64,000 nt of DNA from Siccirubricoccus phaeus (GTDB taxonomy: Bacteria > Pseudomonadota > Alphaproteobacteria > Acetobacterales > Acetobacteraceae): NCBI RefSeq assembly GCF_008360935.1, contig NZ_SRXO01000007.1, forward strand, positions 186,001-250,000, read 5' to 3'. This document shows positions 5,403 through 22,714 of this stretch, one piece after another. The notes beneath the pieces are model-generated. The model saw nothing but the letters and a program-made list of their open reading frames with translations, ran no database searches and was not told where the DNA came from. The translations under genes were made by a program, and so were the position numbers. The first letter of the stretch is position 1. Each line of letters starts with the position of its first letter.

Positions 5403-6161
5403 ACGCCGGCGCTGGGCAAACGCCCCCAGCATCCTTTTCGGCTCCTCGCTCTCCCACGCGCTGGCGAAGCTGTCGATCCCGGCCGCGATCGCCTGGGCCA
5501 TCGGCAGCTCCTCCCAGCGCCGGATCAGCGCCTTCTGCAGCCGCAGCGCCCGCGGCCCGGCCTCGCCCAGCAGCCCCAGCCACTCCTCCACCGCCGCGTC
5601 CAGCGCCGCCGCCGGCACCACCTTCTCCACCAGCCCCCATTCTGCCGCCTCGGCGGCGCCGATGGTCTCGCCCAGCAGCAGCAGGCGCCGCGTGCGGCCC
5701 CAGCCGATCAGCCCCGGCAGCAGCGCCGCCTCCACCACCGAAGGGATGCCGACCCGCACCTCCGGCATGCCGAACCGGGCGGTGTCGGCGGCTAGCCGCA
5801 GGTCGCAGGCGGCGGCCAATTCCAGCCCTGCCCCCAGCGTCCAGCCCTGGATGCGGGCGATCACCGGCACCGGGCAGTCCCGCACCGCCTGGCAGCACCC
5901 ATGCACCAGCGTGATGAATTCCCGCGCCGCCCCGCCATCCGCCAGCCCGGCCATGACGTTGATGTCGGCGCCGCCGATGAAGGCCTTCGGCCCCGCCCCG
6001 GTCAGCACCGCGGCCGTCAGCCCTTCCTCCGCGGCAAGCCCGGCCATGGCGGCGATGAATTCCCGCATCAGCGCCGGGTTCAGCGTGTTCAGCTTCGCCG
6101 CGTGGTCGAGGGTGACGAACGCCACCCCGCCCCGCCGCTCCACCCGGACCTCGCCTGCCAT
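5400..6161 (-). CDS. Enoyl-CoA hydratase/isomerase family protein (crotonase)
   Basis: 253 aa, typical crotonase length. Oxyanion-hole segments are visible as KAFIGGADINVM near residue 60 and GWTLGAGLELAAACDLR near 105, followed by FGMPEVRVGIPS. The acidic residues expected of a true hydratase are not clearly present at both positions, so an isomerase, hydrolase or decarboxylase activity on an acyl-CoA is possible and the substrate is unknown. Its start lies one base from the stop of the upstream metallo-hydrolase gene on the same strand, so the two are almost certainly co-transcribed. The stop codon sits in the end of a dispersed repeat. Confidence 0.85.
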   Translation of the reverse strand: MAGEVRVERRGGVAFVTLDHAAKLNTLNPALMREFIAAMAGLAAEEGLTAAVLTGAGPKAFIGGADINVMAGLADGGAAREFITLVHGCCQAVRDCPVPVIARIQGWTLGAGLELAAACDLRLAADTARFGMPEVRVGIPSVVEAALLPGLIGWGRTRRLLLLGETIGAAEAAEWGLVEKVVPAAALDAAVEEWLGLLGEAGPRALRLQKALIRRWEELPMAQAIAAGIDSFASAWESEEPKRMLGAFAQRRR

Positions 6162-7195: not shown

Positions 7196-8908
7196 ATGGA
7201 CCATGCACCTTCCATGCTGGCCACCCTGGTCATGGCGCTGGCACTGGCGCTGGCCTTCGGGGTGGCGGCGCGCGCGCTGCGGCTGCCGCCGCTCTTCGGC
7301 TACCTCGTCGCCGGGGTGATGGTCGGCCCCTATACGCCGGGCTTCGTCGCGGATGCGGCGCTGACCGAGATGCTGGCCGAGGTCGGCGTCGGATTGCTGC
7401 TCTTCGGCGTCGGGCTGCATTTCCGGCTGCAGGATCTGCTGGCGGTGTGGCGCGTCGCGGTGCCGGGGGCGCTGGCGCAGGTCGCGCTGGGCACGGCGAT
7501 CGGGCTTGGCGTCGGCATGCTGGGCTTCGGCCTCGCACCCGAGGCGGGGCTGGTGTTCGGGCTGATGCTCGCCATCGCCTCCACCGCGGTCGCCACCCGC
7601 AGCCTGGAACGCAGCGGCAACCTGACCTCGGAGGCCGGGCGCATCGCGCTGGGCTGGCTGGTGATGCAGGACCTGGTGGCGGTGCTGGCGCTGGTGCTGG
7701 TGCCGGCCATGGCCGGCGCCGGCCTCGCCGAGCTGCCGCAGGTGCTGGGGCGCAGCCTGCTGGAATTGCTCGCCTTCGGTGCCTCGGTCCTGCTGCTGGG
7801 CCGGCGCGGCCTGCCCTGGGCCCTGGCGCATCTGGCACGCAGCGGCTCGCGGGAGCTGTTCACTCTCGGCGTCATCGTCGCCGCGCTCGGCGTTTCCTTC
7901 GGCGCGGCGGCCATCTTCCACGTCTCCTTCGCCCTCGGCGCCTTCTTCGCCGGCATGCTGCTGGGGGAGAGCGACCTCGGCCATGAGGCGACGGCGGAGG
8001 TGATGCCGCTGCAGCGCGTCTTCGCCGCCCTCTTCTTCGTCTCGGTCGGCATGCTGCTGGACCCGCGCGGCCTGCTGCAGGCGCCCATCGTCTCGGTGGC
8101 GGCGCTGCTCGCCGTGCTGCTCGGCACCGGTGCCGCCACCTTCGGCGTCCTGCTGCTGCTGCGGGTGGAGGCGGCGACGGCGGCGATCGTCGCCGGCGCC
8201 ATGGCGCAGATCGGCGAATTCTCCTTCCTGCTCGGCAAGCTGGCGGTGGTGGAGAAAGTGCTGCCGGCGAGCGCCAATGCTCCGGTGATTGCCGCCGCCT
8301 TCGGCGCCATCCTGCTGACGCCGCTGAGCCAGCACGGGCTGCTGCGGGTGGCGGGGTGGCTGGGGCAGCGGCCGCGCTGGCGGTCCTGGCAGGCAGCCGG
8401 GCAGGGGCCGGCCATCCGCCCGCCGGAAGGGGCAGTGCCGCCGGGCCACGCCATCCTGGTGGGCTATGGCCGGGTGGGGCGGGTGGTGGCCGCGGCGCTG
8501 CGCCGGCACGGCCTGCCCGTGCTGGTGGTGGAGGCGGACCGGCGCGTCGCCGAGGCGGCGATGGCCGCCGGGCTGCCCGTGCTGTGGGGCGATGCGGCAC
8601 GGCCGGAGGTGATGCAAGCCGCCCGCCCGGCCGAGGCCCGGCTGCTGGTGCTGGCCCTGCCGGATGCGGTGGCGGCGCAGCGCATGCTGCAGCTCGCCCG
8701 GCACGGCAACCCCGGCATCCTGGCCGCCGCCCGGGCGCATGACGACGTGGCCATGGCGGCGCTGGCGGAGGACGGGAATATCGGCCTGGTGGTGATGGGG
8801 GAGCGGGAAATCGCCCTCGGCATCGCGGATTTCGCGCTGGTGCGGCTGGGGATCGAGGCGGGGGAGGCACAGCGGACCATCGAGGCGTTGCGGATGGGGG
8901 AGGGGTGA
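7196..8908 (+). CDS. CPA2-family cation:proton antiporter with RCK (TrkA-N) domain
   Basis: 570 aa inner-membrane transporter of the KefB/YbaL type. The first about 385 residues form the Na+/H+ exchanger domain with roughly a dozen hydrophobic segments, including PPLFGYLVAGVMVGPYTPGF near residue 30-50 and FALGAFFAGMLLGES near 245. A cytoplasmic nucleotide-binding domain begins at about residue 417 with ILVGYGRVGRVV, a GxGxxG dinucleotide site, and continues to the C-terminus. Such proteins move K+ or Na+ against protons and are gated by nucleotide or glutathione ligands. An AGGAG ribosome site precedes the ATG. The gene is followed at once by a family B repeat. Confidence 0.88.
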   Translation: MDHAPSMLATLVMALALALAFGVAARALRLPPLFGYLVAGVMVGPYTPGFVADAALTEMLAEVGVGLLLFGVGLHFRLQDLLAVWRVAVPGALAQVALGTAIGLGVGMLGFGLAPEAGLVFGLMLAIASTAVATRSLERSGNLTSEAGRIALGWLVMQDLVAVLALVLVPAMAGAGLAELPQVLGRSLLELLAFGASVLLLGRRGLPWALAHLARSGSRELFTLGVIVAALGVSFGAAAIFHVSFALGAFFAGMLLGESDLGHEATAEVMPLQRVFAALFFVSVGMLLDPRGLLQAPIVSVAALLAVLLGTGAATFGVLLLLRVEAATAAIVAGAMAQIGEFSFLLGKLAVVEKVLPASANAPVIAAAFGAILLTPLSQHGLLRVAGWLGQRPRWRSWQAAGQGPAIRPPEGAVPPGHAILVGYGRVGRVVAAALRRHGLPVLVVEADRRVAEAAMAAGLPVLWGDAARPEVMQAARPAEARLLVLALPDAVAAQRMLQLARHGNPGILAAARAHDDVAMAALAEDGNIGLVVMGEREIALGIADFALVRLGIEAGEAQRTIEALRMGEG

Positions 8909-10513: not shown

Positions 10514-13087
10514 TCAGGCCGGCACCGGCATCCGCGCCAGCAGCGCGGCGATTTCCGGCTTGCAGGAGCCGCAGCCAGTGCCGGCCCCGGTCGCCGCCCC
10601 CACCGCCGCCACATCCCCTCCGCCGCAGCCGAGGATCGAAGCGGCGCTGACTCCATGGCAGACGCAGATGGTGGGGGAGGGGGGCGGGCCATCCGCCGGC
10701 ACCCCGGCCAGCAGGGAGCGCCTTGCTTCCAGCCCGATCGCCGTCTGGCCGAACAGCCCCGGCAGCCAGTCGCGCGGCGGCAGCTCGGGCTCCCGGCCCA
10801 GGAACAGGGCCGCCAGCAGCCTGCCCTCCCGCAGCAGCGCGGCGCGGTGCAGGCCGATGGCCGCATCCTCCAGCACCACCCAGGCGGCGCCGGGTTCGGC
10901 CACCAGGGATCGCAGCCGGGCGAAGGCTTCGGCCGGGCGGTCCGTGCCGGCCAGCTCGTGCCGCCAGATGCCGCCTTCGGCCGGCAGCAGCGCCGCCCAA
11001 TCGGCGATCTCCGGTGCCAGGCGCCGGCGGGCCAGGAGAAAGCCGTGCCAGGCCATGGGCGCCGGCACGACCCGCACGGGGGTGTGCTTCAGTTCCGGCT
11101 GGCCGCTGACCGGGTCCACCGCCGGGTTCACCGCGGCGTTCACCCGGGCGGCGGGGGCGAAGCGGTCGGTCCAGTGCATGGGGATGAAGAGGCTGCCGCG
11201 GGCCTGGCCTGCCTCCAGCTTCAGCCGCAGCACGGCGCTGCCCCAGCGGCTTTCCACCCGGACCAGGCCGCCCGGTTGCAGCCCTGCCGCGTCTTCGGGG
11301 TGCAGGGAGGCGGTCGGCTCCGGGTGGTGCGCCATCAGCCGGGGGACCAGGCCGGTGCGGGTCATGCTGTGCCACTGGTCGCGCAGGCGGCCGGTGTTCA
11401 GGCGCAGCGGGAAGGCGGCATCGGTGGCATGGGCGGGGGGGCGGAAGGGGGTGGGGACGAAGCGTGCCGCGGGCGCCAGCCGGCCGCCGGCCTCGCCCTG
11501 GCGCGGCACGGGCCAGCGGATGGGCGCCATGCCGGCGTAGGCGGCGTCGTCCAGCCCGGCGAGGCCGGAGAGGTCGAAGGCGCGCGGCGCCGGGCGGGCC
11601 AGCGCCGTCACCGCAGCGTGCTCGCGGAAGATGGCGGCCGGGCCGTCCCAGGCGAAGGCCTCGGCCCAGCCCAGCCGGGCCGCCACCTGCGCCACGATCC
11701 ACCAATCCGGCCGCGCCTCGCCCGGCCAGCGGCGGAAGGGGCGCTGGCGGCTGATGACGCGTTCGGAATTGGTGACGGTGCCGTCCTTCTCGCCCCAGCC
11801 CAGGGCCGGCAGGCGGATGCGGGCCAGCGCCACGGTGTCCGAGTCGCGGGTGCAGTCGGAGGCGACGAGGCAGGGCACGCGCGCCATCGCCGCCCGCACG
11901 GCTTCGCTGTCCGGCAGGGAGACGGCCGGGTTGGTCGCCATCACCCAGAGCGCGCCGATGCGGCCCTCGCCGGCGGCGCGGAACAGCTCCACCGCCGTCG
12001 GCCCGGGGCCGGTGGCAAGGCTGGGGGCACGCCAGAATGCGCGCAGCGCCGTGACCTCCGCCGGGCGGTCCCAGTCCAGGTGGCCGGCGAGCATGTTGGC
12101 CAGCGCGCCCACTTCCCGCCCGCCCATGGCGTTGGGCTGGCCGGTGACGCTGAAGGGGCCGGCGCCGGGCCGGCCGATGCGGCCGCTCAGCAGGTGGCAA
12201 TTGATGATGGCGTTCGCCTTGTCCGCGCCGGCCGAGGATTGGTTGGTGCCTTGGCTGAACAGGGTGACGGTGCGCGGCGTCTGCGCGAACCAGTCGAGGA
12301 AGGTGGCGAGCAGGGCTGGGTCGAGTCCCGTCTCGCCCGCCGCGGCGGTGAGCGCCGCGTCCAGCCCCGGCGCCGTGCTGCGGAAGCCCCGCGCATGCAG
12401 GTGGCGCAGCAGGGTGTTGAACAGCGCGACATCGGCGCCCGGGGCGATGGGCAGATGCAGATCGGCGCCCTCGCAGGTGGCGGTGCGGCGGGGGTCGATG
12501 ACGACGAGGCGCATCCCCGGCCGCGACGCCTTCGCCGCCTGCAGCCGCTGGAACAGCACCGGATGGCACCAGGCGAGGTTGGAGCCGACCAGCACCACCA
12601 GATCGGCGAGTTCGAGATCCTCATACACGCCCGGGACCAGATCCTCGCCGAAGGCCCGGCGATGGCCGGCGACGGCGGAGGCCATGCAGAGGCGGGAATT
12701 GCTGTCGATGTTCCCGGTGCCGAGGAAGCCTTTCGCAAGCTTGTTCGCGGCGTAATAGTCCTCGGTCAGCAACTGGCCGCTGACATAGAGGGCAACGCCT
12801 TGCGGCCCGTGCTGCGCCAGGGCGCGCCGAAACCCCTCCGCCACCGCATCCAGCGCGGCATCCCAGGAGGCACGCTGGCCAGCCACCTCCGGATGCAGCA
12901 GGCGGCCGGGCTGGTCCAGCGTCTCGCCGAGGGCGGTGCCCTTGCTGCACAGCCGGCCGCGATTGGCCGGGTGCTCCGGGTCGCCGCGCAGCGTGCCGTC
13001 CGGCGCCGCCAGCACGCCGCAGCCGACGCCGCAATAGGGGCAGGTGGTGCGGACGGGGCGCGGCTCGGAGCTGCAGGTCTCGGTCAT
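10514..13087 (-). CDS. nasA: Assimilatory nitrate reductase catalytic subunit
   Basis: 857 aa molybdopterin oxidoreductase that reduces nitrate to nitrite in the cytoplasm. The N-terminal [4Fe-4S] ligands are Cys16, Cys19, Cys23 and Cys47 (CPYCGVGC then LCSKG, with the conserved Lys49). Molybdopterin segments include ASAVAGHRRAFGED and FSQGTNQSSAGADKANAI. The C-terminus carries a [2Fe-2S] bacterioferritin-associated-ferredoxin-like domain with Cys808, Cys810, Cys839 and Cys842 (ICVCHG and GTGCGSCKPE). Such C-terminal domains accept electrons from a partner reductase. It is the last gene of the nitrate operon, 192 bp after the flavoprotein gene, with repeats and a hairpin in the gap. Confidence 0.92.
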   Translation of the reverse strand: MTETCSSEPRPVRTTCPYCGVGCGVLAAPDGTLRGDPEHPANRGRLCSKGTALGETLDQPGRLLHPEVAGQRASWDAALDAVAEGFRRALAQHGPQGVALYVSGQLLTEDYYAANKLAKGFLGTGNIDSNSRLCMASAVAGHRRAFGEDLVPGVYEDLELADLVVLVGSNLAWCHPVLFQRLQAAKASRPGMRLVVIDPRRTATCEGADLHLPIAPGADVALFNTLLRHLHARGFRSTAPGLDAALTAAAGETGLDPALLATFLDWFAQTPRTVTLFSQGTNQSSAGADKANAIINCHLLSGRIGRPGAGPFSVTGQPNAMGGREVGALANMLAGHLDWDRPAEVTALRAFWRAPSLATGPGPTAVELFRAAGEGRIGALWVMATNPAVSLPDSEAVRAAMARVPCLVASDCTRDSDTVALARIRLPALGWGEKDGTVTNSERVISRQRPFRRWPGEARPDWWIVAQVAARLGWAEAFAWDGPAAIFREHAAVTALARPAPRAFDLSGLAGLDDAAYAGMAPIRWPVPRQGEAGGRLAPAARFVPTPFRPPAHATDAAFPLRLNTGRLRDQWHSMTRTGLVPRLMAHHPEPTASLHPEDAAGLQPGGLVRVESRWGSAVLRLKLEAGQARGSLFIPMHWTDRFAPAARVNAAVNPAVDPVSGQPELKHTPVRVVPAPMAWHGFLLARRRLAPEIADWAALLPAEGGIWRHELAGTDRPAEAFARLRSLVAEPGAAWVVLEDAAIGLHRAALLREGRLLAALFLGREPELPPRDWLPGLFGQTAIGLEARRSLLAGVPADGPPPSPTICVCHGVSAASILGCGGGDVAAVGAATGAGTGCGSCKPEIAALLARMPVPA

Positions 13088-13123
13088 GCTGACGCGCCCA
13101 TCTCAAGCGGATCTGTCGTAACG

Positions 13124-13146
13124 CTGCCGCGGCTTTGCCGCGACAG
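13124..13146. other. Hairpin between the flavoprotein gene and nasA
   Basis: CTGCCGCGGC, loop TTT, GCCGCGACAG: ten-base arms with one mismatch, about 37 bases upstream of the nasA start on the minus strand. It could stabilise or segment the polycistronic message, or weakly terminate it. No U run follows. Confidence 0.45.
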
Positions 13147-13199
13147 GACGTACCGAAGCGTCCGGCATCCGGCGCTCATCGGCCCCCCCGCGGCATCGC

Positions 13200-13263
13200 G
13201 CAGCGACGTCGTGGGGATTGCCATCGGGGCCCTCATGGCGGCACGCAGCGACGTCATGGGGAT
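13200..13263. repeat. Direct repeat in the flavoprotein-nasA gap
   Basis: GCAGCGACGTCGTGGGGAT at 13200-13218 recurs as GCAGCGACGTCATGGGGAT at 13245-13263, an offset of 45 bases with one mismatch in 19. A weaker third relative follows at about 13266. It lies in the 192-bp spacer before nasA, in a locus whose other genes are nearly contiguous, so this is an insertion-like repeat rather than coding sequence. Confidence 0.55.
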
Positions 13264-13279
13264 CAGACGTCGCGGGGTC

Positions 13280-14815
13280 CTAATAGACATCGCGCTGGTA
13301 GCGGTGCTGGCGGGCCAGGGCGACGATCCAGTCGCGCGCCTGGTCGGCGCTCATCCCGCCCTGGTCCATGGCGATCTGCCGCAGTGCGGCATCCACATCC
13401 TTCGCCATGCGGCTGGCATCGCCGCAGATGTAGAAATGGGCGCCATCCTGCAGCCAGCGCCAGAGATCTCCGGCATCCTCCCGCATCCGGTCCTGCACAT
13501 ACACTTTCCGCGCGCCGTCGCGGGACCAGGCGAGGGAGAGGCGGGTCAGCACGCCCTCCCGCTGCCAGGCCGTGATCTCGGCGGCGAAGAGGAAATCCGT
13601 GGCGCTCCGCTGGTCGCCGAAGAACAGCCAATTGCGGCCGCGCGCGCCGGTGGCGGCGCGGTGCTGCAGGAAGGCGCGGAAGGGCGCGATGCCGGTGCCG
13701 GGGCCGACCATGATGACCGGCGTGTCCGGCTTCTCCGGCAGGCGGAAATGGCTGGCCTGGACATAGGCGCGCAGCGGCGCCTCCGGCGCGGCGCGGAAGG
13801 CGAGGTGGCAGGAGGCGACGCCATCCCTGACGCGCCCGCGCCGCTCCGCCCGCACCACGCCGACGCAAAGCTCCACCTTCCCCGGCGCCGCCAGAGGCGA
13901 GGAGGCGATGGAATAGAGCCGCGGCTTCAGCGCGGGCAGGGAGGCGATGAGGTCGGCGACCGGCGGCCGCGCCGAAGGGAAAGCCTGCAGCAGGTCGAGC
14001 AGGTCGGCCTCCCGCGGCTCGGCATCGTCATCGCCGTCCGAGAGCTTGCGCAGCATCGCCGCCTCGCGCGGGTCCTTCGCCGCGCCGGCCAGCAGGTCGG
14101 TGGTGCGGTCCAGCGGGCGGGCGATGTCCTTCTCCCGCGCCAGCACCGGGCGCAGTGACTCCTCGGCGCCCAGCGCCGCCATCACCGCCGCCACCAGCGC
14201 CGGATCATTCTCCACCACCACGCCGAGGGAATCGCCCGGCTGATAGGCGAGGCCGCTGGCGGAAAGGTCCAGCACCACATGCCGCACATCCTTGGCGGAG
14301 CCCTCGCCGGTCAGCCGCGCGGCGCTGAGGAAGCCGACCGGCTCCCCCACCGGCCCCTGCGGCTTCGGCGTCGCAGCGGGCGCGGGGGCGGCCAGCGCCT
14401 CGGCCTCCGCCAGCAGCGCCTTCAGCGCCTTGGCCGTGGGCTTGCCGCCGGGAACGCAGAGGCTGGCGCTGGTCTCGGCGCCGCTCGCCAGGGCCTCGGC
14501 ATAGCTCTGGCAGACATAGCCGCATTGCCCGCAATCGAGCTGCGCCATGGCCGCCATCAGCCGGCGCGCGCGGGGCCTGCCTTCGGCGAGGGCCAGCCGC
14601 TCCGCCAGCTCCAGCGCGGGGTCGTGCCAGGGGAAATCCTCTTCCGCCGGCACCGCCGGGGCGGGGGCCGCACCGGCTTCGGCGCTGCCATAGAGCCCGG
14701 CGAGAAAGCCGTTCAGCCAGGCGCGCTGGGCCGCGCTGAAGGGGGCGCTTTCCGGGATCACGGGCACCGGGGCGGGGCCGGGGAAAGCGCCGGTGAAGGG
14801 CGAGATCGCGTTCAT
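13280..14815 (-). CDS. Fe-S/CysJ-like NADPH-flavin reductase of the nitrate operon
   Basis: 511 aa. Residues 26-40 (FSAAQRAWLNGFLAG) form a helical motif also found at the start of NirA. A small [4Fe-4S] domain has Cys95, Cys98, Cys102 and Cys120 (CGQCGYVC then LCVPGG). The rest is a ferredoxin-NADP-reductase-type module like the C-terminal half of sulfite reductase flavoprotein CysJ, with the FAD motif RLYSIASSP, the NADPH site GPGTGIAPFRAFLQ and the C-terminal RYQRDVY. The flavodoxin domain of true CysJ is absent. It probably moves electrons from NADPH to NirA and/or NasA. The ATG at 14815 overlaps the nirA stop by four bases. Confidence 0.82.
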   Translation of the reverse strand: MNAISPFTGAFPGPAPVPVIPESAPFSAAQRAWLNGFLAGLYGSAEAGAAPAPAVPAEEDFPWHDPALELAERLALAEGRPRARRLMAAMAQLDCGQCGYVCQSYAEALASGAETSASLCVPGGKPTAKALKALLAEAEALAAPAPAATPKPQGPVGEPVGFLSAARLTGEGSAKDVRHVVLDLSASGLAYQPGDSLGVVVENDPALVAAVMAALGAEESLRPVLAREKDIARPLDRTTDLLAGAAKDPREAAMLRKLSDGDDDAEPREADLLDLLQAFPSARPPVADLIASLPALKPRLYSIASSPLAAPGKVELCVGVVRAERRGRVRDGVASCHLAFRAAPEAPLRAYVQASHFRLPEKPDTPVIMVGPGTGIAPFRAFLQHRAATGARGRNWLFFGDQRSATDFLFAAEITAWQREGVLTRLSLAWSRDGARKVYVQDRMREDAGDLWRWLQDGAHFYICGDASRMAKDVDAALRQIAMDQGGMSADQARDWIVALARQHRYQRDVY

Positions 14816-16527
14816 GCGTCCTCCAGCGCCCGTGCCTCGGCCAGGGCCGCATCGGGCTGGCGGGCGCACCATTGGTGGAAGCTTTCGCCGGGCGCGGCGC
14901 GGCCCTGCTGCCAGGCCCGCAGCAGGGCGAGCACGGCCTCGCCCAGCTCCTCCGCCGCCACGCGGCGGATCAGGCGGCCGATCTTCTGCTCCGGCCCGGC
15001 GCCGCCGCCGACATGGAGATCGTAGCCCTCCACCATCTCCTCGCCGCGCTCGATCTTCGCGCCGAGCAGGCCGATATCGGCGATGTAGTGCTGCGCACAG
15101 GAATGGTGGCAGCCGGTGAGATGGATGTTCAGCGGGGCATCCAGGGCGATGCGGCGTTCCAGGAATGCCGCCAGCTCCGCCGCGTGGCGCTTGGTGTCGG
15201 CGGCGGCGAATTTGCAGCCGGCATTGCCGGTACAGGCGACCAGGCCGCCGCGGATCGCGCTCGCTGCCCAGCCCAGGCCGAGCTCGGCGACGGCCGCCTT
15301 GGCCTCCGCGATGCGGGATTCGGGGATGTCGGAGATGAGCAGGTTCTGCCAGACCGTCAGCCGCAGCGTCGCGCTGCCGCAGCGCTCGGCGATATCGGCG
15401 AGGCCGCGCAGATGCTCCACGCTCAGCCGGCCGACCGGGGTGGTGATGCCGAGATAGCAGAGCCCCGCCTGCTTCTGCGCATGCACCCCGATATGCCCGT
15501 GCTTCGCCGGCACCGGTGGCGGCGAAATCGCGGCGGCGCGGGGCAGGGGGCGGCCGAGGCGCTGCTCCACCGCGGCGAGGAAGCCCTCCACCCCCATGCG
15601 GTCCAGCACGTATTTCAGCCGGGCCTTGGCGCGGTCGGTGCGGCAGCCCTCGGCGATGAAGACGCGCAGGATGGCGTCGCAGACCGCCACCATTTCCGCC
15701 GGCGCCACCGCCACGCCGGTCTCCCGCGCGAAGTCGCGATGGCCGGTGATGCCGCCGAGGGTCAGGCGGAAGCGCACCCCCTCGGCCGTCTCCACCGCCG
15801 TCAGCGCGATATCGTTGGTCTCCTGCAATACCTCCACCACGCCGCCGCCGCTGACGGCGATGTTGAATTTGCGCGGCAGGGCGAAGAGGTCGCGGGTGTT
15901 GAGGATGTGGTGGTGCAGCGCGCGGACCAGCGGCCGCGTGTCGATCAGCTCCGCCGCATCGATGCCGGCGGTGGGCGAGGCGGTGATGTTGCGGATATTA
16001 TCCGCCCCCGTGCCGCGCGGCAGCAGGCCGAGATCGCCGAGACGCATCACCACCTCCGGCCCCTTCGCCGCCGGGATTTCCCGCAATTGGAGGTTGGCGC
16101 GGGTGGTGATGTCGGCATAGCCGCCGGCGCACTCCTCGGCGATCTCGGCAATGCCGCGAAGCTGCCAGGCGGAGAGGATGCCGCCCGGGATGCGCAGGCG
16201 GCACATGAAGGCCTCCTGCGCCGGGCCGACATAGAACAGCCCGTGATAGCGGCCGATGAAATCGTCGATCGGCCTGGGGAAGCGCCCCTCGGCAGCGCGG
16301 GCGGTGAGTTCCTCCCAACGGTCCAGCGGGTGCTTCTCCCGCTTCGCCTGTTCCTGCGGCACCAGCTTGCCGCCCGCGGCCAGCACCTTGTCCTGCGCCG
16401 CGCGCAGCGCATCGGGCGGCGCACCCTCGGCGGCGGCGGGGCGCAGCGCGCCGCGGCGCGCCTCGACGCCGGCCATGAAGCCCTTCAGGTATTCCTGCTG
16501 TTCCAGGCTGAATCCGTCCTGCGGCAT
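14812..16527 (-). CDS. nirA: Assimilatory nitrite reductase, NirA type (sirohaem, [4Fe-4S])
   Basis: 571 aa single-polypeptide nitrite/sulfite reductase-fold enzyme reducing nitrite to ammonium. The two half-domains each carry a ferrite-reductase segment, for example ADITTRANLQLREIP and SATLRLTVWQNLLISDIP. The coupled cluster/sirohaem cysteines are in ACTGNAGCKFA and HLTGCHHSCAQH. Residues 6-20 (FSLEQQEYLKGFMAG) match the N-terminal helix of the neighbouring reductase. The start at 16527 is preceded by GGGAGG and overlaps the stop of the upstream FAD gene (TGATG), so it is preferred to a frame beginning six codons earlier. Because NirA enzymes normally use ferredoxin, the adjacent reductase is a likely donor. 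Confidence 0.9.
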   Translation of the reverse strand: MPQDGFSLEQQEYLKGFMAGVEARRGALRPAAAEGAPPDALRAAQDKVLAAGGKLVPQEQAKREKHPLDRWEELTARAAEGRFPRPIDDFIGRYHGLFYVGPAQEAFMCRLRIPGGILSAWQLRGIAEIAEECAGGYADITTRANLQLREIPAAKGPEVVMRLGDLGLLPRGTGADNIRNITASPTAGIDAAELIDTRPLVRALHHHILNTRDLFALPRKFNIAVSGGGVVEVLQETNDIALTAVETAEGVRFRLTLGGITGHRDFARETGVAVAPAEMVAVCDAILRVFIAEGCRTDRAKARLKYVLDRMGVEGFLAAVEQRLGRPLPRAAAISPPPVPAKHGHIGVHAQKQAGLCYLGITTPVGRLSVEHLRGLADIAERCGSATLRLTVWQNLLISDIPESRIAEAKAAVAELGLGWAASAIRGGLVACTGNAGCKFAAADTKRHAAELAAFLERRIALDAPLNIHLTGCHHSCAQHYIADIGLLGAKIERGEEMVEGYDLHVGGGAGPEQKIGRLIRRVAAEELGEAVLALLRAWQQGRAAPGESFHQWCARQPDAALAEARALEDA

Positions 16528-17726
16528 CACGCAGCCTCCCGCCAATGCGCCGGGCCGAAGGCGAGGAGCTGGCGCCGGCCGCCCAGGGCTCGCCCGGAGG
16601 CGATCAGGTCCAGGTAGAAGCCGGCATCCGCCGTGTCGCCATAGAGCACGGCGCCGATCAGCCGGTCATCCCGCAGCAGCAGGCGGCGATAGCTCTCCGC
16701 TGCCTCGTCGCGCAGCACGATGCTCTCCGCATTCGCCGCGGCGATGTCGCCCGCCGACCAGACCGCGGTGCCGGAGACCTTCAGCGCCGCGGCATCGGCG
16801 CGGGGCGCCCAGGCTACCGCCTCCCCGGCGATGGCGCGGGCGGCGATCTCGGCCTGCTCCAGCGCCGGCGCGACAAGGCCGATGCAGCGGCCGCGATGCT
16901 CCGCGCACTCGCCGATGGCGGTGATGGCAGGGTCGCTGGTCCGCATGGCGTCATCCACCTGGATGCCGCGGCCGATGGCGAGCCCCGCCGCCTCCGCCAG
17001 CGTCACCTGCGGCCGAATGCCGACCGCCATGACGACGAGCGAAGCCGGGACCAGGCTGCCATCCGAGAGCCGCACGCCGGTGGCGCGGGTGGCGCCCTCG
17101 ATCGCCACCGTGCTCGCCGGCATGGCGAAGGCGATGCCGCGCAGGCCGAGCCGGCGGGTCAGCAACTCCCCGGCCGTGGCGTCGAGCTGGCGCTCCATGG
17201 GCCAGCCCACGGCATGCACCACCGTCACCTTCATGCCGCGCGCGGCGAGGCCCACCGCCGCCTCCAGCCCCAGCAGCCCGCCGCCGATCACCACGGCGCG
17301 CGCGCCTTGGATTGCGGCTCGGCGGATGGCCTGCACATCCTCCAGCGTGCGGTAGGCCACCACCCCCGGCAGCGCCGCGCCCGGCAGGTTGAGCCGGATG
17401 GCGGCGGAGCCGGTGGCCAGCACCAGCCGGTCATAGCGCAGCGCCTCGCCGCGCGCCGTCACCGCGGCCCCGGCTGCGCGGTCGATGGCGGCGATCGGCG
17501 TCGCCGGGCGGTAGGCGATGCCGGCCCCACGCAGCGCGGCGAGCGGATGGGTGATGAGGCCCGCCACCTCCGCCTCGCCGGTCAGCAGCTTCGACAGCGC
17601 CACCCGGTCATAGGGCAGCGCCGCCTCCGCGCCGGCCAGCGTCACGCGGGCGGCGGGCAGGGATTCGGCCAGACGAAGGGCGCAGCGCGTGCCGGCCGGC
17701 CCCGCTCCCACGACCAGGATGCGCAT
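16527..17726 (-). CDS. NirB-like FAD-dependent oxidoreductase
   Basis: 399 aa. It is a pyridine-nucleotide disulfide-oxidoreductase-fold protein like the N-terminal half of NADH-nitrite reductase NirB. The FAD motif is VVGAGPAGTRCALRL near residue 4, the NAD(P)H motif VVIGGGLLGLEAAVGLA near 146, and ATGSAA and GIRPQ sit at the usual places. There is no BFD or sirohaem domain, so it is not NirB itself. It lies between nrtD (11 bp) and nirA (overlap), so it is probably an electron-transfer subunit for nitrate or nitrite reduction, comparable in role to NasB/NasC reductases. Which partner it serves is not clear. Confidence 0.82.
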   Translation of the reverse strand: MRILVVGAGPAGTRCALRLAESLPAARVTLAGAEAALPYDRVALSKLLTGEAEVAGLITHPLAALRGAGIAYRPATPIAAIDRAAGAAVTARGEALRYDRLVLATGSAAIRLNLPGAALPGVVAYRTLEDVQAIRRAAIQGARAVVIGGGLLGLEAAVGLAARGMKVTVVHAVGWPMERQLDATAGELLTRRLGLRGIAFAMPASTVAIEGATRATGVRLSDGSLVPASLVVMAVGIRPQVTLAEAAGLAIGRGIQVDDAMRTSDPAITAIGECAEHRGRCIGLVAPALEQAEIAARAIAGEAVAWAPRADAAALKVSGTAVWSAGDIAAANAESIVLRDEAAESYRRLLLRDDRLIGAVLYGDTADAGFYLDLIASGRALGGRRQLLAFGPAHWREAA

Positions 17727-17737
17727 GGGATGGGCGC

Positions 17738-18532
17738 TCAGGCCGCGGCCAGCGCCGGGTTGGCGTGACGCGCATGGAGGAATTCCAGCACCGCGCTGCG
17801 CGCCGCGACGAAACGCGGATCGGCCGCCAGCGCCAGCCGGTCGCGTGGCCGCGGCAGCTCCACCTCCAGCACCTCGCCGATCCTGGCGTTCGGCCCGTTG
17901 GTCAGCATGACGATGCGGTCGGCGAGCAGCACCGCCTCGTCCACGTCGTGGGTGATCATCACCACTGTGGTGCCGCGTTGCGCGTGGATCTCCATCACCT
18001 GGTCCTGCAGATGCGCCCGGGTCAGCGCGTCCAGCGCGCCGAAGGGCTCGTCCAGCAGCAGCACCTTCGGCCGCATGGCCAGGGCGCGTGCGATGCCGAT
18101 GCGCTGCTTCATGCCGCCGGAGATCTCGTTCGGCCGCTTGTCCTTCGCATGCGTCATGCGGACCAAGGCGAGGTTCTCCAGCACCCAGTCATGCCGCGCG
18201 GCGCGCGACATGGTCCTCGACAGCGTCTGGTCCACCGCGAGCTTGACGTTCTGGTAGCAGGTGAGCCAGGGCAGCAGGGAATGGTTCTGGAAGACCACGG
18301 CGCGGTCCGGGCCGGGGCCCTCCACCTCGCGTCCCTCCAGCACCACGCCGCCCGCCGTCGCCGGCAGCAGGCCGGCGATGACGTTCAGCAGGGTGGACTT
18401 GCCGCAGCCGCTATGACCGATGACGGCAACGTATTCGCCGCGGCGGATCGTCAGGTCGATCTCCCGCAGCACCGGCACTGGCGCGCGGGGGAAGGCAACG
18501 GAGAGCTGCGAGATGTCGAGGAAGCGGTCCAT
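17738..18532 (-). CDS. nrtD: Nitrate ABC transporter ATP-binding protein
   Basis: 264 aa ATPase of the NrtD/SsuB/TauB class. Walker A is GHSGCGKSTLLN (near residue 38), the signature is EISGGMKQRIGIARAL and Walker B is VLLLDEPFGALD, followed by the H-loop MITHDVDEAVLL. It powers uptake of nitrate through NrtB with substrate delivered by NrtA. There is no C-terminal NrtA-like regulatory domain of the NrtC type. Spacing of 12 bp from nrtB and 11 bp to the next gene places it firmly within the operon. Confidence 0.92.
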   Translation of the reverse strand: MDRFLDISQLSVAFPRAPVPVLREIDLTIRRGEYVAVIGHSGCGKSTLLNVIAGLLPATAGGVVLEGREVEGPGPDRAVVFQNHSLLPWLTCYQNVKLAVDQTLSRTMSRAARHDWVLENLALVRMTHAKDKRPNEISGGMKQRIGIARALAMRPKVLLLDEPFGALDALTRAHLQDQVMEIHAQRGTTVVMITHDVDEAVLLADRIVMLTNGPNARIGEVLEVELPRPRDRLALAADPRFVAARSAVLEFLHARHANPALAAA

Positions 18533-18544
18533 GAGAATCTCTCC

Positions 18545-19408
18545 TCAGCTCGCGGCCGTGCCATGGGTGACGAGGCGCCCGGCCAGCGCCACCAGCCGGT
18601 CCAGCGCGAAGCCCACCAGCCCGACATAGATCAGCGCCACGATGATGTCCGAGAGGTTGGAGCTGTTCCACGCATCCCAGATGAAGAAGCCGATGCCGAC
18701 GCCGCCGATCAGCATCTCCGCTGCGATGATCGCCAGCCAGGACAGGCCGATGCCGATCTTGAGGCCGGTGAAGATGTAGGGCGCCGCGGCGGGCAGCAGG
18801 ATCTTCCAGAAATAGGCCGGGCCGCGCAGGCGGATGACGGCGGCGACGTTGCGGTAATCCTGCGGCACGTTGCGCACGCCGACTGCGGTGTTGATGATGA
18901 TCGGCCAGATCGAGGTGATGAAGATCACGAAGATCGCGCTGGGCTGCGCCTCCCGGAACGCCGCGAGGGAGAGCGGCAGCCAGGCCAGCGGCGGCACGGT
19001 GCGCAGCACCTGGAAGAGCGGATCCAGCCCCCGCATGGCGAAATCCGAGGTGCCGATCAGCAGGCCGAGGGCGACGCCGGCCACGGTTGCCAGCGCGAAG
19101 CCGAGCGCGACGCGCTGCAGGCTGGCGAGCAAGTGCCAGAACAGCCCCTTGTCCAGCCCGCCGCGGTCGAAGAACGGGTCGACGATCAGGTCCCGCGCAT
19201 CCTCCCACACCTTGCTCGGCGGTGGCAGCGTCGCGCCAGGGCCGCTGGCGGCGAATTCCCACAACCCGACCAGCGCCGCCAGCACCAGCAGCGGCGGCAG
19301 CACCTGCAGCAGCACGGGCTTCAGCCGCGCGGCCCGCGGCAGCGCCGCCGGCAGGGGCCGGGACAGCGCGGCCGTGGCCGCGGCCGGTTTCGGGGCGAGC
19401 ATGTTCAT
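18545..19408 (-). CDS. nrtB: Nitrate ABC transporter permease
   Basis: 287 aa inner-membrane permease. Hydrophobic helices begin at about residue 30 (VLLQVLPPLLVLAALVGLWE), and the coupling segment FREAQPSAIFVIFITSIWPI is in the middle, as in NrtB/CmpB. DLIVDPFFDRGGLDKGLFW is a typical NrtB signature between the first two helices. It forms the membrane channel for the NrtABD importer. It starts four bases after the nrtA stop. No missing segments are seen. Confidence 0.92.
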   Translation of the reverse strand: MNMLAPKPAAATAALSRPLPAALPRAARLKPVLLQVLPPLLVLAALVGLWEFAASGPGATLPPPSKVWEDARDLIVDPFFDRGGLDKGLFWHLLASLQRVALGFALATVAGVALGLLIGTSDFAMRGLDPLFQVLRTVPPLAWLPLSLAAFREAQPSAIFVIFITSIWPIIINTAVGVRNVPQDYRNVAAVIRLRGPAYFWKILLPAAAPYIFTGLKIGIGLSWLAIIAAEMLIGGVGIGFFIWDAWNSSNLSDIIVALIYVGLVGFALDRLVALAGRLVTHGTAAS

Positions 19409-19412
19409 CGCG

Positions 19413-20678
19413 TCAGGCTCCGGCCAGCTTCTTGATGGAGAGGGAGGCGAGATAGGCGTCGGGGTTGTCGGGGTCGAAGACCTTGCCGTCGAAGAAGGTC
19501 TCGCGGCCGCGGCTGGGGCCGCTCGGCAGCTCCCCCGTCGGCACCCCGGCGCGCTCGGCCGCCTGGCGCCAGATCGCCTCGCGGTTTACCTGGGCGATCA
19601 GCGTCCTGGTGTCCGTCCCCTCCGGCAGCACGCCCCAGCGGATATCCTCGGTCAGGAACCAGAGATCGTGGCTGGGGAAGGGGTAGCTGGCATGGTCGCG
19701 CCAGAATTTCATCAGCAGCGGGCTGCTCTCCACCTTGCGGCCATCGCCGTAGTCGATGTTGCCGCGGCTGCGGTTGAGGATGTCCGCGACGGGCACGTTG
19801 AACCAGGCGCGGCGGCCGATGATGCTGCACATCTCCGGCTTGTTCGCATCCTGGTCGCACCAGCGCTGCGCCTCGATGACCGCTGCCGTCAGCGCCACCG
19901 CGGCGTTCGGGTGCTTCTCCACCCAATCGGCGCGCAGCCCGAGCGACTTCTCCGGATGGTCGCGCCACAGCTCGCCGGTGACGGCAGCGGAGAAGCCGAT
20001 CTTCTGGTTAACGAGCTGGTCGTTCCAGGGCTCGCCGACGCAGAAGGCGTCCATGGTGCCGACCTTCATGTTCGCCACCATCTGCGGCGGCGGCACGACG
20101 ATGGTCTGCACGTCCCTGTCCGGGTCGATGCCGGCGGCGGCCAGCCAATAGCGGATCCAGAGATCATGGGTGCCGCCGCGGAAGGTCATCGCAACCTTGC
20201 TCTCGGTGGTCAGCGCCCGCTTCAGCGTGCCGGCGTCGATGGTCGGCTTCAGGGCCCTGTGCTTCTCAGCGACCGAGAGCGCCTGGCCGTTGGTGTTCAG
20301 CCGGGCCAGGATCACCATGGGCACCGGCTGGTTGTTCTGGGTGACGCGGCCGGTGGTCAGCAGATAGGGCATCGGCGTCAGGATATGCGCGCCGTCGATG
20401 CCGCCGCGCTCGCCGCCGAGGACGAGATTGTCGCGCGTCGCGCCCCAGCTCGCCTGCTTGTTCACCTCCACATCCGGCAGGCCGTGCCTGGCGAAGAAGC
20501 CCTTCTCCTTGGCGATGATGAGCGGCGCGGCATCGGTCAGCGCGATGTAGCCGAGGATCGCCTTCTTCACCTCCGGCGTCGTCGGTGCTTGTGCGAAGGC
20601 GCCGCGCGGCGTGGCGGCGCGGGCGGCAGCGAGCAGGGACGCGGTGGCGGCGATCGCGTGGCGGCGGGTGAGGCGCAT
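19413..20678 (-). CDS. nrtA: Nitrate ABC transporter substrate-binding protein
   Basis: 421 aa. The N-terminus MRLTRRHAIAATASLLAAAR is an export signal containing a twin-arginine pair (TRRHAIA), so Tat export is plausible though the motif is not perfect. The mature part has the NrtA/CmpA hallmarks LGYIALTDAAPLIIAKEKGF, QASWGATRDNLVLG, THDLWIRYWLAAAGIDPD and FCVGEPWNDQLV. It binds nitrate, and perhaps nitrite, in the periplasm. The ATG at 20678 is two bases after the nasS stop. It differs from the neighbouring NasS by having the signal peptide and a longer C-terminus. Confidence 0.93.
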   Translation of the reverse strand: MRLTRRHAIAATASLLAAARAATPRGAFAQAPTTPEVKKAILGYIALTDAAPLIIAKEKGFFARHGLPDVEVNKQASWGATRDNLVLGGERGGIDGAHILTPMPYLLTTGRVTQNNQPVPMVILARLNTNGQALSVAEKHRALKPTIDAGTLKRALTTESKVAMTFRGGTHDLWIRYWLAAAGIDPDRDVQTIVVPPPQMVANMKVGTMDAFCVGEPWNDQLVNQKIGFSAAVTGELWRDHPEKSLGLRADWVEKHPNAAVALTAAVIEAQRWCDQDANKPEMCSIIGRRAWFNVPVADILNRSRGNIDYGDGRKVESSPLLMKFWRDHASYPFPSHDLWFLTEDIRWGVLPEGTDTRTLIAQVNREAIWRQAAERAGVPTGELPSGPSRGRETFFDGKVFDPDNPDAYLASLSIKKLAGA

Positions 20679-20680
20679 GG

Positions 20681-21796
20681 TCAGGCGGTCTCCGGCAGGT
20701 CGGCAGGCGGTTGCGAGGCGATGGGGGGCTCCGGCTCCCGCAGGCGGGCGGCGGCGGCGCGCCAGATATCCTGGCGCCAGGGGGCGAGGGCGGCGCTGTC
20801 CGAAAGCCCGGCGGGCACATGGCCCCAGCGGCGCATCTGCCGTAGGAACCAGGCGGCCTGCTCGCGTCGCGGCAGGGTGGCGGTGCGGAAGCGCAGCGGG
20901 GCGGCCTGGGGCAGGCCCTGGGCCATGCCGTCGAAGGCGGCGGCGATGGTCGGCGCGGCGAGGCCGGGGAAGGCGCGGCGCTGCAGGATGCGCACCGCCT
21001 CCGCCTGGTTCGCCGGCTCCTCCAGCCAGCGCGTCGCGGCGATCAGCGCCGCGGTGCAGGCGATGGCGCTTTCCGGGTCCTGCGCCGCATAGGCGGCGTC
21101 GAAGGCCAGCACCTTTTCCGGATGGTTCGGCCAGATATCGCCGGAGGAGAGGGCGATGGTGCCGACGCCCAGCGCCGCGGCCTGGCTGCCCCAGGGCTCG
21201 CCGGCGCAGAAGCCGTCGATCAGCCCGTCCTGCAGCCGCTGCGCCACCATGGGCGGCGGCACGGTGACGAGGCGGAGGTCGCGGTCCGGATCCAGCCCGC
21301 CCGAGGCGAGCCAGTAGCGCAGCAGGTAATTGTGCGAGGAATAAGGGAAGACGACGGCCAGGGTGAGCGGCCTTTCCCCCGCGCCGTCGCGCCTGCGGAC
21401 CAGCGCGGCGAAGGCGCTGGCGGCGAGCGGCGGGGTGAAGCGGCCCAGCGCCTCGGCGAGCGGGCGGGAGAGGGTGATGGTGTTGCCATTGGCGCCGATG
21501 CCGGCGGCGACCGTCAGCTTCGCCTTCACCCCGTCCAGCCCCGCCGCCAGCGCCAGGGGCAGCGGGCCGAGCAGATGCGCCGCATCCAGCGCACCGAAGG
21601 CGAGCTTGTCGCGGATGGCCGCCCAGGAGGCTTCGAGCGAGAGCGCAACCCGGAGCCCGACGGAATCGAACAGCCCGAGCTCCTCGGCCACCAGCAGCGG
21701 GGCGGCATCCGTCAGCGGCACGCAGCCGATGCGCAGCGTGCGCAGCACGGGGCGCTTCAGGGCCGGGCGAACGGGGGAATCGCTGTCCAACGGCAT
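20681..21796 (-). CDS. nasS: Cytosolic nitrate sensor NasS (NrtA-like)
   Basis: 371 aa. It belongs to the same fold as NrtA (IGCVPLTDAAPLLVAEELGL, LEASWAAIRDKLAFG, YLLRYWLASGGLDPDRDL, GFCAGEPWGSQAAA) but has no signal peptide, as expected for a cytoplasmic sensor. In known systems NasS holds the antiterminator NasT inactive and releases it when nitrate or nitrite binds. The ATG at 21796 gives MPLDSDSPVRP and has a GGAGG upstream; a frame beginning at 21838 runs into the structured leader and is rejected. Adjacent nasT and the leader hairpins strongly support the assignment. The hairpins put nasS itself under NasT control. Confidence 0.88.
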   Translation of the reverse strand: MPLDSDSPVRPALKRPVLRTLRIGCVPLTDAAPLLVAEELGLFDSVGLRVALSLEASWAAIRDKLAFGALDAAHLLGPLPLALAAGLDGVKAKLTVAAGIGANGNTITLSRPLAEALGRFTPPLAASAFAALVRRRDGAGERPLTLAVVFPYSSHNYLLRYWLASGGLDPDRDLRLVTVPPPMVAQRLQDGLIDGFCAGEPWGSQAAALGVGTIALSSGDIWPNHPEKVLAFDAAYAAQDPESAIACTAALIAATRWLEEPANQAEAVRILQRRAFPGLAAPTIAAAFDGMAQGLPQAAPLRFRTATLPRREQAAWFLRQMRRWGHVPAGLSDSAALAPWRQDIWRAAAARLREPEPPIASQPPADLPETA

Positions 21797-21868
21797 CTGG
21801 GCGGACCTCCGGCCGGAAAGCCAGATGCGGGCCGCCATTGGACCGCGGGATCAGGGAAGCGGGGACCG

Positions 21869-21918
21869 GGTGGGGCGCCGCGTTGCGCCTCACCACGTGG
21901 CGCACGCCGTTGCGCGCC
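21869..21918 (-). promoter_or_regulatory. Dual-hexaloop ANTAR (NasT) target in the nasS leader RNA
   Basis: Read on the minus strand, hairpin 1 (21918-21899) has a seven-pair stem GGCGCGC/GTGCGCC-type, with one G-U pair, closing a six-base loop AACGGC. After a nine-base linker, hairpin 2 (21894-21869) has a ten-pair stem, with one A-C mismatch, closing the six-base loop AACGCG. Both loops have A at position 1 and G at position 4, the rule for RNA bound by ANTAR antiterminators. A weaker third hairpin with loop AATGGC lies at 21827-21846 and is followed by CTTT; it may be the terminator, but no classical U run is seen. Confidence 0.72.
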
Positions 21919-21931
21919 GCCGCCTGGGGAT

Positions 21932-21961
21932 TTTCTACGGGCGCCTTGGGCGGCGGGTCAA
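21932..21961 (-). promoter_or_regulatory. Promoter for the nasS-nasA transcript
   Basis: On the minus strand a TTGACC -35 box (21961-21956) is separated by 18 bases from a TAGAAA -10 box (21937-21932). The predicted transcription start near 21924 is only a few bases before the first hexaloop hairpin, so the hairpins would form at the very 5' end of the RNA. Confidence 0.55.
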
Positions 21962-22021
21962 GAAAAATGCGTATCCCGTAGGCACATGGCCGACGTGGCG
22001 TACGTTTAGACTATATTTCGA

Positions 22022-22612
22022 TCAATCTGCCCCGTTTTCCTGCAGAAGACTGGCGGCTATCGCCGCCAGGCGCTTGCCCCGGTCCATCGCCATGCGCCGC
22101 AGCCGCCGATAGGCTTCCGGCTCGCTCAGCCGGTCCCGCCGCATCAGCAGCGCCTTGGCGCGGTCCACCAGCTTCCGCTCCTCCAGGTCGCTGCGCGCCG
22201 CCGCCAGCTCCTGCTGCAATTTTTGATGCGCGCGGAAGCGGCGGATCGCCACCTCCATCACCGGCCGGACGCGCGCCGGCGCCATGCCCTCCACCACATA
22301 GGCCGCGACGCCCGCTTCCAGCGCCGCCTCGATCTGCTCCGGCTCGGCCTTCTCGGCGAACAGCACCACCGGCCGCGGCTCGTCCCGGTGCAGCGCGCGC
22401 ATGCCTTCCAGCTCGTCGCGGGAGGGGTCGTCGAGGCCGCAGACGATCACCTCGGCGCCGGTGTCCCGGACCCGCTGCACCAGATCGTCGATGCCGGCGG
22501 CGACCGCGACCACGGTGCAGCCGGCCGTGACCAGGCCCTGCTCCACGGCGGCCGCCCGCTCCCGGTCGCTGTCCACAAGCAGAACGCGCAGCGTGGTGGC
22601 CCTTCGATCCAC
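22022..22612 (-). CDS. nasT: Transcription antiterminator NasT (receiver-like + ANTAR)
   Basis: About 196 aa. The N-terminal two thirds are a receiver-like domain (LRVLLVDSDRERAAAVEQGL, PVVLFAEKAEPEQIEAALEA). The C-terminal third is an ANTAR RNA-binding domain with ERKLVDRAKALLMRR, LSEPEAYRRLRRMAMDRGKR and a final helix. It binds paired hexaloop hairpins and prevents termination when released from NasS. Start choice is uncertain: no ATG is in frame, GTG at 22612 is listed, and GTG at 22621 or TTG at 22618/22633 are alternatives; none has a clear ribosome site. Divergent from a Bug-family gene. It lies 225 bp upstream of nasS. Confidence 0.85.
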   Translation of the reverse strand: MDRRATTLRVLLVDSDRERAAAVEQGLVTAGCTVVAVAAGIDDLVQRVRDTGAEVIVCGLDDPSRDELEGMRALHRDEPRPVVLFAEKAEPEQIEAALEAGVAAYVVEGMAPARVRPVMEVAIRRFRAHQKLQQELAAARSDLEERKLVDRAKALLMRRDRLSEPEAYRRLRRMAMDRGKRLAAIAASLLQENGAD

Positions 22613-22714
22613 ACTCAACACGTCGTTGCTCAAGCATGGATCGTGCCGCGGCACGGATTGCCTCGGGGCGGCAGCTCGGGCAGGCTTCCCGCAAGACGCG
22701 AAACAGGAAACGCC

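Follow-up and report, generated by a model that had tools for sequence, protein, structure and literature searches.

A probable NasT (ANTAR) leader between nasT and nasS in Siccirubricoccus phaeus and other Acetobacteraceae

The nasT-nasS locus

The window considered here, a stretch of 64,000 nucleotides from a Siccirubricoccus phaeus contig, holds a gene for NasT, an intergenic leader and then nasS, which is the first gene 3' of that leader and heads a run of nitrate-assimilation genes (Table 1). NasS is, as judged by eye, without a signal peptide, and a REC-ANTAR gene adjoining a signal-peptide-less NrtA-like sensor, with linked nitrate-assimilation genes, is what is found in a NasS-NasT system. 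The first-pass annotation had an ANTAR protein, NasT, encoded just upstream of the leader, and both the ANTAR and the receiver domain are indeed there; it is the one PF03861 match in the genome and the sole ANTAR protein found there. Further along the run the nitrite-reduction genes (13280-17726, minus strand) appear to be split, with an FAD reductase, a sirohaem reductase and a separate flavoprotein reductase, and no single NirB.

Table 1. Features of the nasT-nasS locus and of the leader (window coordinates)
Feature	Coordinates	Strand	Description
nasT	22022-22639	minus	response-regulator receiver and ANTAR RNA-binding domain (Pfam ANTAR 8.2e-18, Response_reg 1.2e-07); listed 5' end is not a start codon
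nasT-nasS leader	21797-22021	minus	about 225 nt between both genes
Promoter-like pair, TTGACC-18-TAGAAA	21961-21932	minus	predicted; 9/12 consensus matches
Hairpin 1 (P1), GGCGCGC[AACGGC]GTGCGCC	21899-21918	minus	7-bp stem; hexaloop with A1, G4
Hairpin 2 (middle hairpin), GGTGAGGCGC[AACGCG]GCGCCCCACC	21869-21894	minus	one mismatch
Hairpin 3 (P2), GCGGTCC[AATGGC]GGCCCGC	21827-21846	minus	one U-C mismatch
P2 loop 3' half and 3' arm, GGCGGCCC	21829-21836	minus	7 bp and one mismatch with RBS-side strand
P3' hairpin	21808-21825	minus	between P2 and SD; variable sequence; no ANTAR-type hexaloop in the window
Shine-Dalgarno (SD) of nasS, GGAGG	21806-21810	minus	from sequence
RBS-side strand, GGUCCGCC	21800-21807	minus	can pair with P2 loop 3' half and 3' arm
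nasS	20681-21796	minus	NrtA-like nitrate sensor, NMT1_2 (Pfam 6.2e-78); ATG at 21796 with SD
Remaining nitrate-assimilation genes after nasS	10514-20678	minus	Pfam and gene context
nrtA	19446-20678	minus	directly next after nasS in the run
nrtB (ntrB family), ABC ATPase (nrtC), FAD reductase		minus	after nrtA, in this order
Sirohaem nitrite/sulphite reductase, flavoprotein reductase, molybdopterin oxidoreductase		minus	next in order; the last a nitrate reductase by context

The three hairpins and the promoter-like pair are present as first described, on the minus strand. A promoter scan of 21600-22200 listed none, its rule demanding a T at the last -10 position. The TTGAC -35 is the top sigma-70 match, at equal distance from P1, in five leaders of the comparison below (L001, L002, L003, L005, L006), and it is placed 5 nt further from P1 in L004 and L007, the relatives scoring 7-8/12. 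When the 225-nt leader is shuffled 3000 times with its dinucleotides preserved, at least two hexaloops with A at position 1 and G at position 4 (A1/G4), each on at least five contiguous pairs, occur in 0.07% of cases and at least one in 6.3%, the observed count of three being two hairpins, with P1 counted in two registers and hairpin 3 outside the count because of its mismatch. The folding energy of the leader is not significantly lower than that of shuffles and is ordinary for G+C-rich DNA. The first-pass annotation saw no U-run terminator after the hairpins, and its reading stands: no intrinsic terminator was found in 21600-22200, and in the window there is no TTTT from P2 to ten nucleotides past the nasS start. 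No Rfam family was matched in the window at gathering score, nor in 21750-22100 up to E 10. Loop to loop, P1 lies 72 nt from P2 (linker 52 nt) and 27 nt from the middle hairpin.

Conservation in Acetobacteraceae

A NasT search of 150 genomes of the family gave 30 loci, the window's own included. A P2-like 20-mer lies 3' of nasT and ahead of nasS in 24 of the 30, and tblastn places a NasS homologue past the leader in all 24, the window among them. Across these 24 leaders P2 keeps 14-20 of its 20 positions, at least 18 in 20 of them, which makes it the most conserved element. The alignment takes in 23 of the 24 (L021, with a weak P1, was left out); P1 of L023 is partly misaligned in it, and gapped cells were set aside for the covariation counts. 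The closing C-G pair, A1 and G4 of P1 are invariant in the aligned leaders, as are A1 and G4 of the P2 loop, and two-sided changes occur at six of the seven pairs of the P1 stem while 99.3% of P2 stem cells are paired. For P1 and P2 jointly 95.3% of cells are paired, versus 76.8% when shuffled, and there are 47 two-sided changes versus 14.3, neither value being reached in 500 shuffles; the number of pairs with change on both sides, 7 versus 5.8, is unexceptional (57 of 500 shuffles reach 7). Compensatory change is thus a feature of P1; P2 is nearly invariant and hence gives little information of this kind. The alignment with Acetobacteraceae leaders that the first-pass annotation had asked for has in this way been favourable to an ANTAR leader, with P1 covarying and P2 conserved.

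The P1-P2 distance is less constant. Loop to loop it is 39-72 nt in 23 of the 24 leaders (for L021 the script chose another register) and 39-48 nt in the more distant members; the linker, counted with 7-bp stems, is 19-52 nt in 23 of the 24, about half of the distant members falling within 25 nt. A covariance model built from the alignment, and so tuned to Acetobacteraceae, finds one confident site in the genome, the window's leader (E 7.7e-11), the next best having E 1.06. At E of 0.1 or below it has sites in 27 of the 150 family genomes, most of them sequences used to build it. A class-wide search with the model (R1) under strict filters returned the window and one other genome of 385, a result that says little on distribution because of the tuning. 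Among relatives that have a name, P1 and P2 are seen after nasT in, for example, Belnapia rosea (L111), Neoroseomonas soli (L114) and Rhodovarius crocodyli (L118); no clean P2 was seen in L113, a Roseococcus MAG.

Elsewhere in the family the arrangement differs. In L025, L026, L028 and L030 nasS directly adjoins nasT with no leader between, the NasT in question being more distant (42-46% identity); the contig of L027 ends, and L029 has no NasS match. The genome of L026 has a model site about 1.2 kb past nasT (E 0.0016), and another genome, G078, has one about 200 nt past a nasT (E 0.037).

That an ANTAR leader lies between nasT and nasS on the minus strand, as was first proposed, is borne out by the comparison with relatives and by there being a sole ANTAR protein. 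At the level of comparative sequence analysis it is strongly supported that the region is a genuine NasT leader, with its hairpins assigned otherwise than in the first reading: hairpins 1 and 2 had been taken as the functional pair, and the pair that is conserved is P1 with P2, the 'third' hairpin of that account. The notion that these hairpins arose by chance in a G+C-rich spacer, to which the unremarkable folding energies might lend something, is hardly credible given the covariation of P1 and the conservation of P2 over 23-24 genomes.

P2 and the nasS ribosome-binding site

In 23 of the 24 leaders nasS starts 23-49 nt past P2, the starts having been chosen by Shine-Dalgarno match (L022 has no clear start and was left out of the ribosome-binding site (RBS) tests). 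TTTT is absent between P2 and ten nucleotides past the start in 22 of the 24, the window not being one of the two that have it. What P2 faces in place of a U-run may be the RBS. The duplex between the 3' side of P2 and the RBS-side strand averages -12.5 kcal/mol over 23 leaders versus -10.3 for permuted strands, and none of 400 permuted sets equals it; applying one column permutation to all leaders does so in 24 of 2000 trials and reassigning partners in 256 of 5000. These counts are not independent tests, the leaders being related by descent. In L013 and L021 altered P2 arms still match altered RBS strands, and in L003 an altered RBS still pairs with P2 via G-U. The window's own pairing is unexceptional (-13.3 versus a permuted mean of -11.4, with 22% of permutations as good), and in seven leaders (L004, L007, L011, L017, L018, L019, L024) it is no better than for permuted strands. 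The 5' arm of P2 (GCGGUCC) does well against the RBS too (rank 3 of 140 permutations); the 3' half explains many minimum-energy folds better and is preferred, the 5' arm being possible too. Sequence comparison suggests, across the relatives, a pairing of P2 with the RBS.

Predictions of accessibility are of a similar mixed character. When P2 is held in hairpin form, predicted SD accessibility rises in 19 of 23 leaders (mean +0.16 versus +0.06 with shuffled spacers), the change exceeding the shuffled-spacer control in only 15 of the 23. It drops in four, among them L001 and L002 of this genus, and in the window the drop is from 0.37 to 0.26. The stretch between P2 and the SD folds more stably than its shuffled versions, with z below -1 in 17 of the 24 leaders and a z of -1.97 in the window. 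In the window the P2 loop, AAUGGC, contains an ATG in frame with nasS, and a start codon within the loop was considered and rejected: given the chosen starts, only five of 23 leaders (L001, L003, L008, L017, L020) have it in frame, and the P2 loop of other leaders, AAGGGC or AACGGC, has no ATG. The first-pass suggestion that the third hairpin may replace a terminator was right in that the last hexaloop overlaps the terminator in other Proteobacteria; here it faces the RBS instead.

A proposed mechanism and its alternatives

The leader RNA would come from a promoter immediately 5' of P1 or from transcription continuing out of nasT, and the P1 and P2 hexaloop hairpins would be the NasT sites. 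In the absence of nitrate NasS would hold NasT, and the 3' half of P2 would then pair with the nasS RBS, enclosing P3'. Nitrate would release NasT, which would be recruited at P1 and from there hold P2 in its hexaloop form, leaving the RBS free. This would be the terminator/antiterminator exchange of ANTAR systems with an RBS hairpin standing in for the U-run terminator, and its topology parallels that of the terminator-type NasT leaders considered below, in which the last hexaloop uses its loop and 3' arm to pair with the strand preceding the U-run. With nasS heading the genes under control, NasT would raise the level of its own inhibitor, a negative feedback. NasT binding at the leader, the translational output and the feedback are all things that we infer. 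That the nasS-nrt-nir-nas genes have here a leader responsive to NasT, in which NasT holds P2 and so frees the RBS of nasS, has for us a little less than an even claim to belief; it is the likeliest single reading and is not firmer because neither the window's own pairing nor its SD accessibility is supportive.

Spacing has also to be considered. According to the portions of the literature drawn on here, EutV leaders have linkers of 5-12 nt, with a change to 3 or 14 nt harming induction (PMC3369931), and 20 added nucleotides abolished antitermination (PMC8934654); the P1-P2 spacing exceeds that tolerance, which counts against the proposal. For EutV a single hexaloop is reported to be contacted by each ANTAR domain, and the model proposed is one of recruitment followed by antitermination (PMC8934654). 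With respect to the ANTAR dual-hexaloop class, the leader has the loops and stems but neither the linker length nor the terminator; as to the latter, overlap with a terminator is not required, being present in some 30% of matches in ANTAR-encoding organisms (PMC3369931).

The same P1 and P2 could serve a transcriptional output, the P2-RBS hairpin or the untranslated leader giving Rho-dependent or other non-canonical termination that NasT prevents. A block of nasS translation could itself trigger Rho polarity. Related leaders in the present comparison carry U-run terminators, and the NasT leaders in the consulted parts of PMC5424462, PMC6759348 and PMC6712156 act on transcription. Against such an output are the missing intrinsic terminator in the window, the 22 of 24 leaders devoid of a TTTT run and the short distance of P2 from the start codon, and we regard it as somewhat unlikely.

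The version in the first-pass annotation, which makes hairpins 1 and 2 of this species a dual hexaloop of the classical, short-linker kind and hairpin 3 an accessory, draws on their EutV-like 27 nt from loop to loop and on the covariance model, whose match in the window begins at the middle hairpin and by its coordinates places P1 there. Yet the middle hexaloop, AACGCG, has no counterpart in L002 and L003, the two other genomes of the genus (three were compared in all), the most conserved element is hairpin 3, and the fold of the P1-P2 interval is hardly more stable than that of shuffles (z -0.87 in the window). The annotation had itself named loss of the stems in close relatives as what would tell against its hairpins, and such loss is seen for hairpin 2, hairpins 1 and 3 being conserved. 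Nor did the close clade L001-L008 support the idea that the middle hairpin is conserved as a spacer, the mean z there being -0.40. On this evidence the 1-plus-2 pairing is decidedly unlikely. However, hairpin 2 may have taken on a role in this species, because the model match starts there and its 45 nt to P2, loop to loop, lie inside the 39-48 nt of the distant members.

A third alternative reverses the sign: NasT binding would clamp the hairpins beside the RBS and repress. Precedent comes from actinobacterial ANTAR RNAs, of which, in the part of PMC8164766 at hand, about 37% overlap an RBS or start, translational repression being proposed and linkers of 2-25 nt accepted. They are like the present leader in having hexaloops beside the RBS and a proposed translational output; they differ in that the motif itself covers the RBS and binding represses, whereas here a separate P2-RBS pairing is predicted and binding would activate. 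Further points for repression are that P2 and P3' adjoin the RBS, that holding P2 lowers predicted SD accessibility in the window, and that Bradyrhizobium narK-bjgb-flp, with predicted NasT hairpins, is up in a nasT mutant (PMC6759348, in part). Contrary to it, holding P2 opens the SD in 19 of the 23 leaders, and in the same partial reports NasT is needed for nas expression in Paracoccus (PMC3795266) and raises nos and nap in Bradyrhizobium (PMC6759348). Repression is very unlikely, and the reading preferred in what follows is that NasT would free the nasS RBS.

Terminator-type NasT leaders elsewhere

For a broader view 40 nasT stretches from other Alphaproteobacteria (57 genomes matched) were taken together with the best 80 named nasT loci, which are mostly proteobacterial, nine being Acetobacteraceae-like. 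In 64 of these 120 loci (the best 80 named and the 40) there are 79 anchors, an anchor being a hexaloop that pairs, through its loop and 3' arm, with the strand preceding a U-run. Two further A1/G4 hexaloops lie upstream of 13 of the 79 anchors under the stricter rule, and none do so in shuffles. A looser rule takes one anchor per locus with at least eight pairs and also accepts G at position 1 of the near loop and a G-C closing pair; it yields 60 leaders from the same 120 loci, of which some anchors are probably chance (e.g. L101, L109) and some come from near sister genomes that are not independent (L081/L082, L078/L079, L169/L182). With 'near' meaning 16-33 nt and 'far' 39-82 nt upstream of the last hexaloop, the 60 leaders among the loci listed divide into 19 with near and far hexaloops, 22 with near only, 10 with far only and 9 with neither, the corresponding shuffle values being 0.08, 1.4, 1.3 and 57.2. 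The near loop has A at position 1 in 33 of the 60, and among the loci listed 14 of the 19 three-hexaloop leaders have A1 in all loops. Three tandem hexaloops before a U-run terminator are seen in L072, L076, L081, L082, L126, L169, L179 and L182, among others.

The first-pass remark that a third hexaloop would be unusual does not survive this: three are present in 19 of the 60 terminator-type NasT leaders among the loci listed, and with 13 of 79 anchors under the stricter rule. In far-only leaders, again among the loci listed and by the stricter rule, the gap mostly holds a hairpin (z below -1 in 15 of 19). Three-hairpin NasT leaders are thus common, given the near-plus-far counts and the hairpins in far-only gaps, and the Acetobacteraceae form consists of a far hairpin and a last one, with the RBS in the position of the U-run. 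Compared with the window, the terminator-type leaders (L080, L122 from Inquilinus limosus, L169/L182 from Paramagnetospirillum) share a last hexaloop that pairs downstream and often a far upstream hexaloop, and differ in the U-run terminator and, often, in having a near hexaloop too. Acetobacteraceae are not alone in having a leader between nasT and nasS; one occurs, with a terminator, in L081, L082 and L127 too, whose gene labels are partly uncertain as NasS and NrtA are homologous.

Promoter class varies as well. A sigma-54 match of at least 11/13 lies upstream of 28 of 44 anchors with at least nine pairs (among the loci listed, L072-L185). Within the Acetobacteraceae set a sigma-54 promoter of the -24/-12 type (TGGCAC-N5-TTGCT) precedes P1 with scores of 12-13 in L018, L019 and L021 and of 10 in L020. 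The window's clade has the TTGAC -35 instead of a sigma-54 match: the leader is conserved, the class of its promoter is not.

Known systems provide further comparison. EutV-eutP of Enterococcus faecalis (PMC3369931, PMC8934654) is similar in its A1/G4 hexaloops and its two hairpins, the second shared with a mutually exclusive alternative hairpin; it has a 5-12 nt linker and a U-run, whereas the Acetobacteraceae leaders have 39-72 nt between loops and an RBS-side strand. EutX RNA has an additional single hexaloop (PMC8934654), so that extra hexaloops as such are known. NasS-NasT, leader hairpins and nitrate-response genes are common to the present locus and to Paracoccus nasA and Bradyrhizobium nosR (PMC5424462, PMC3795266, PMC6712156). 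NasT binds the Paracoccus nasA leader and nitrate releases it from NasS (PMC3795266), the Paracoccus hairpins HI and HII being 137 and 91 bp before nasA and 46 bp apart; nosR is subject to NasT antitermination, with hairpins H1, H2 and H3 (PMC6712156, PMC6759348). Those systems differ in that antitermination is upstream of nasA or nosR, while the window's leader precedes nasS and has no U-run. The Klebsiella nasF leader with NasR (PMC3369936) has A1/G4 hexaloops and a nitrate response too, with the difference that NasR is a NIT-ANTAR one-component regulator and that the terminator is intrinsic. In the open-licence literature no three-hexaloop or translational NasT leader was seen, nor nasT/nasS in connection with Acetobacteraceae, which is weak evidence of absence.

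From terminator to ribosome-binding site?

Were Acetobacteraceae to have rebuilt a terminator-type ANTAR leader into a translational switch, the U-run giving way to an RBS and NasT inducing its inhibitor NasS, the ancestral NasT leader might, as a guess, have been a three-hexaloop array of far recruitment hairpin, near hairpin and antiterminator, with hexaloop number and spacing since remodelled, against the fixed-spacing rule of EutV. This larger proposition is possible, and we put it forward with more doubt than confidence. If true, an ANTAR protein would have gone over from antitermination of transcription to translation simply through exchange of the strand that lies downstream, and a NasS feedback loop would be predicted that is not described in the portions drawn on here of the PMC papers cited on NasT. 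Does an ANTAR dimer use its hexaloops singly or together? The series of loop spacings that occurs in nature (about 16-82 nt overall and 39-72 nt in Acetobacteraceae), together with the occurrence of leaders with two and with three hexaloops, makes the question directly testable.

The terminator-less form may extend beyond Acetobacteraceae. At about 1501-1609 of L041 (= 7965-8073 of L109), from another alphaproteobacterial family, there is a P1-P2 pair without an evident U-run; it is placed after nasTS and before a gene that, by eye, is like that for a NarK-type transporter. Finally, L124, a Chromatiales MAG, has two hexaloop-terminator leaders in one nas locus (near 5866-5918 and 7539-7661), each before an NrtA-like gene.
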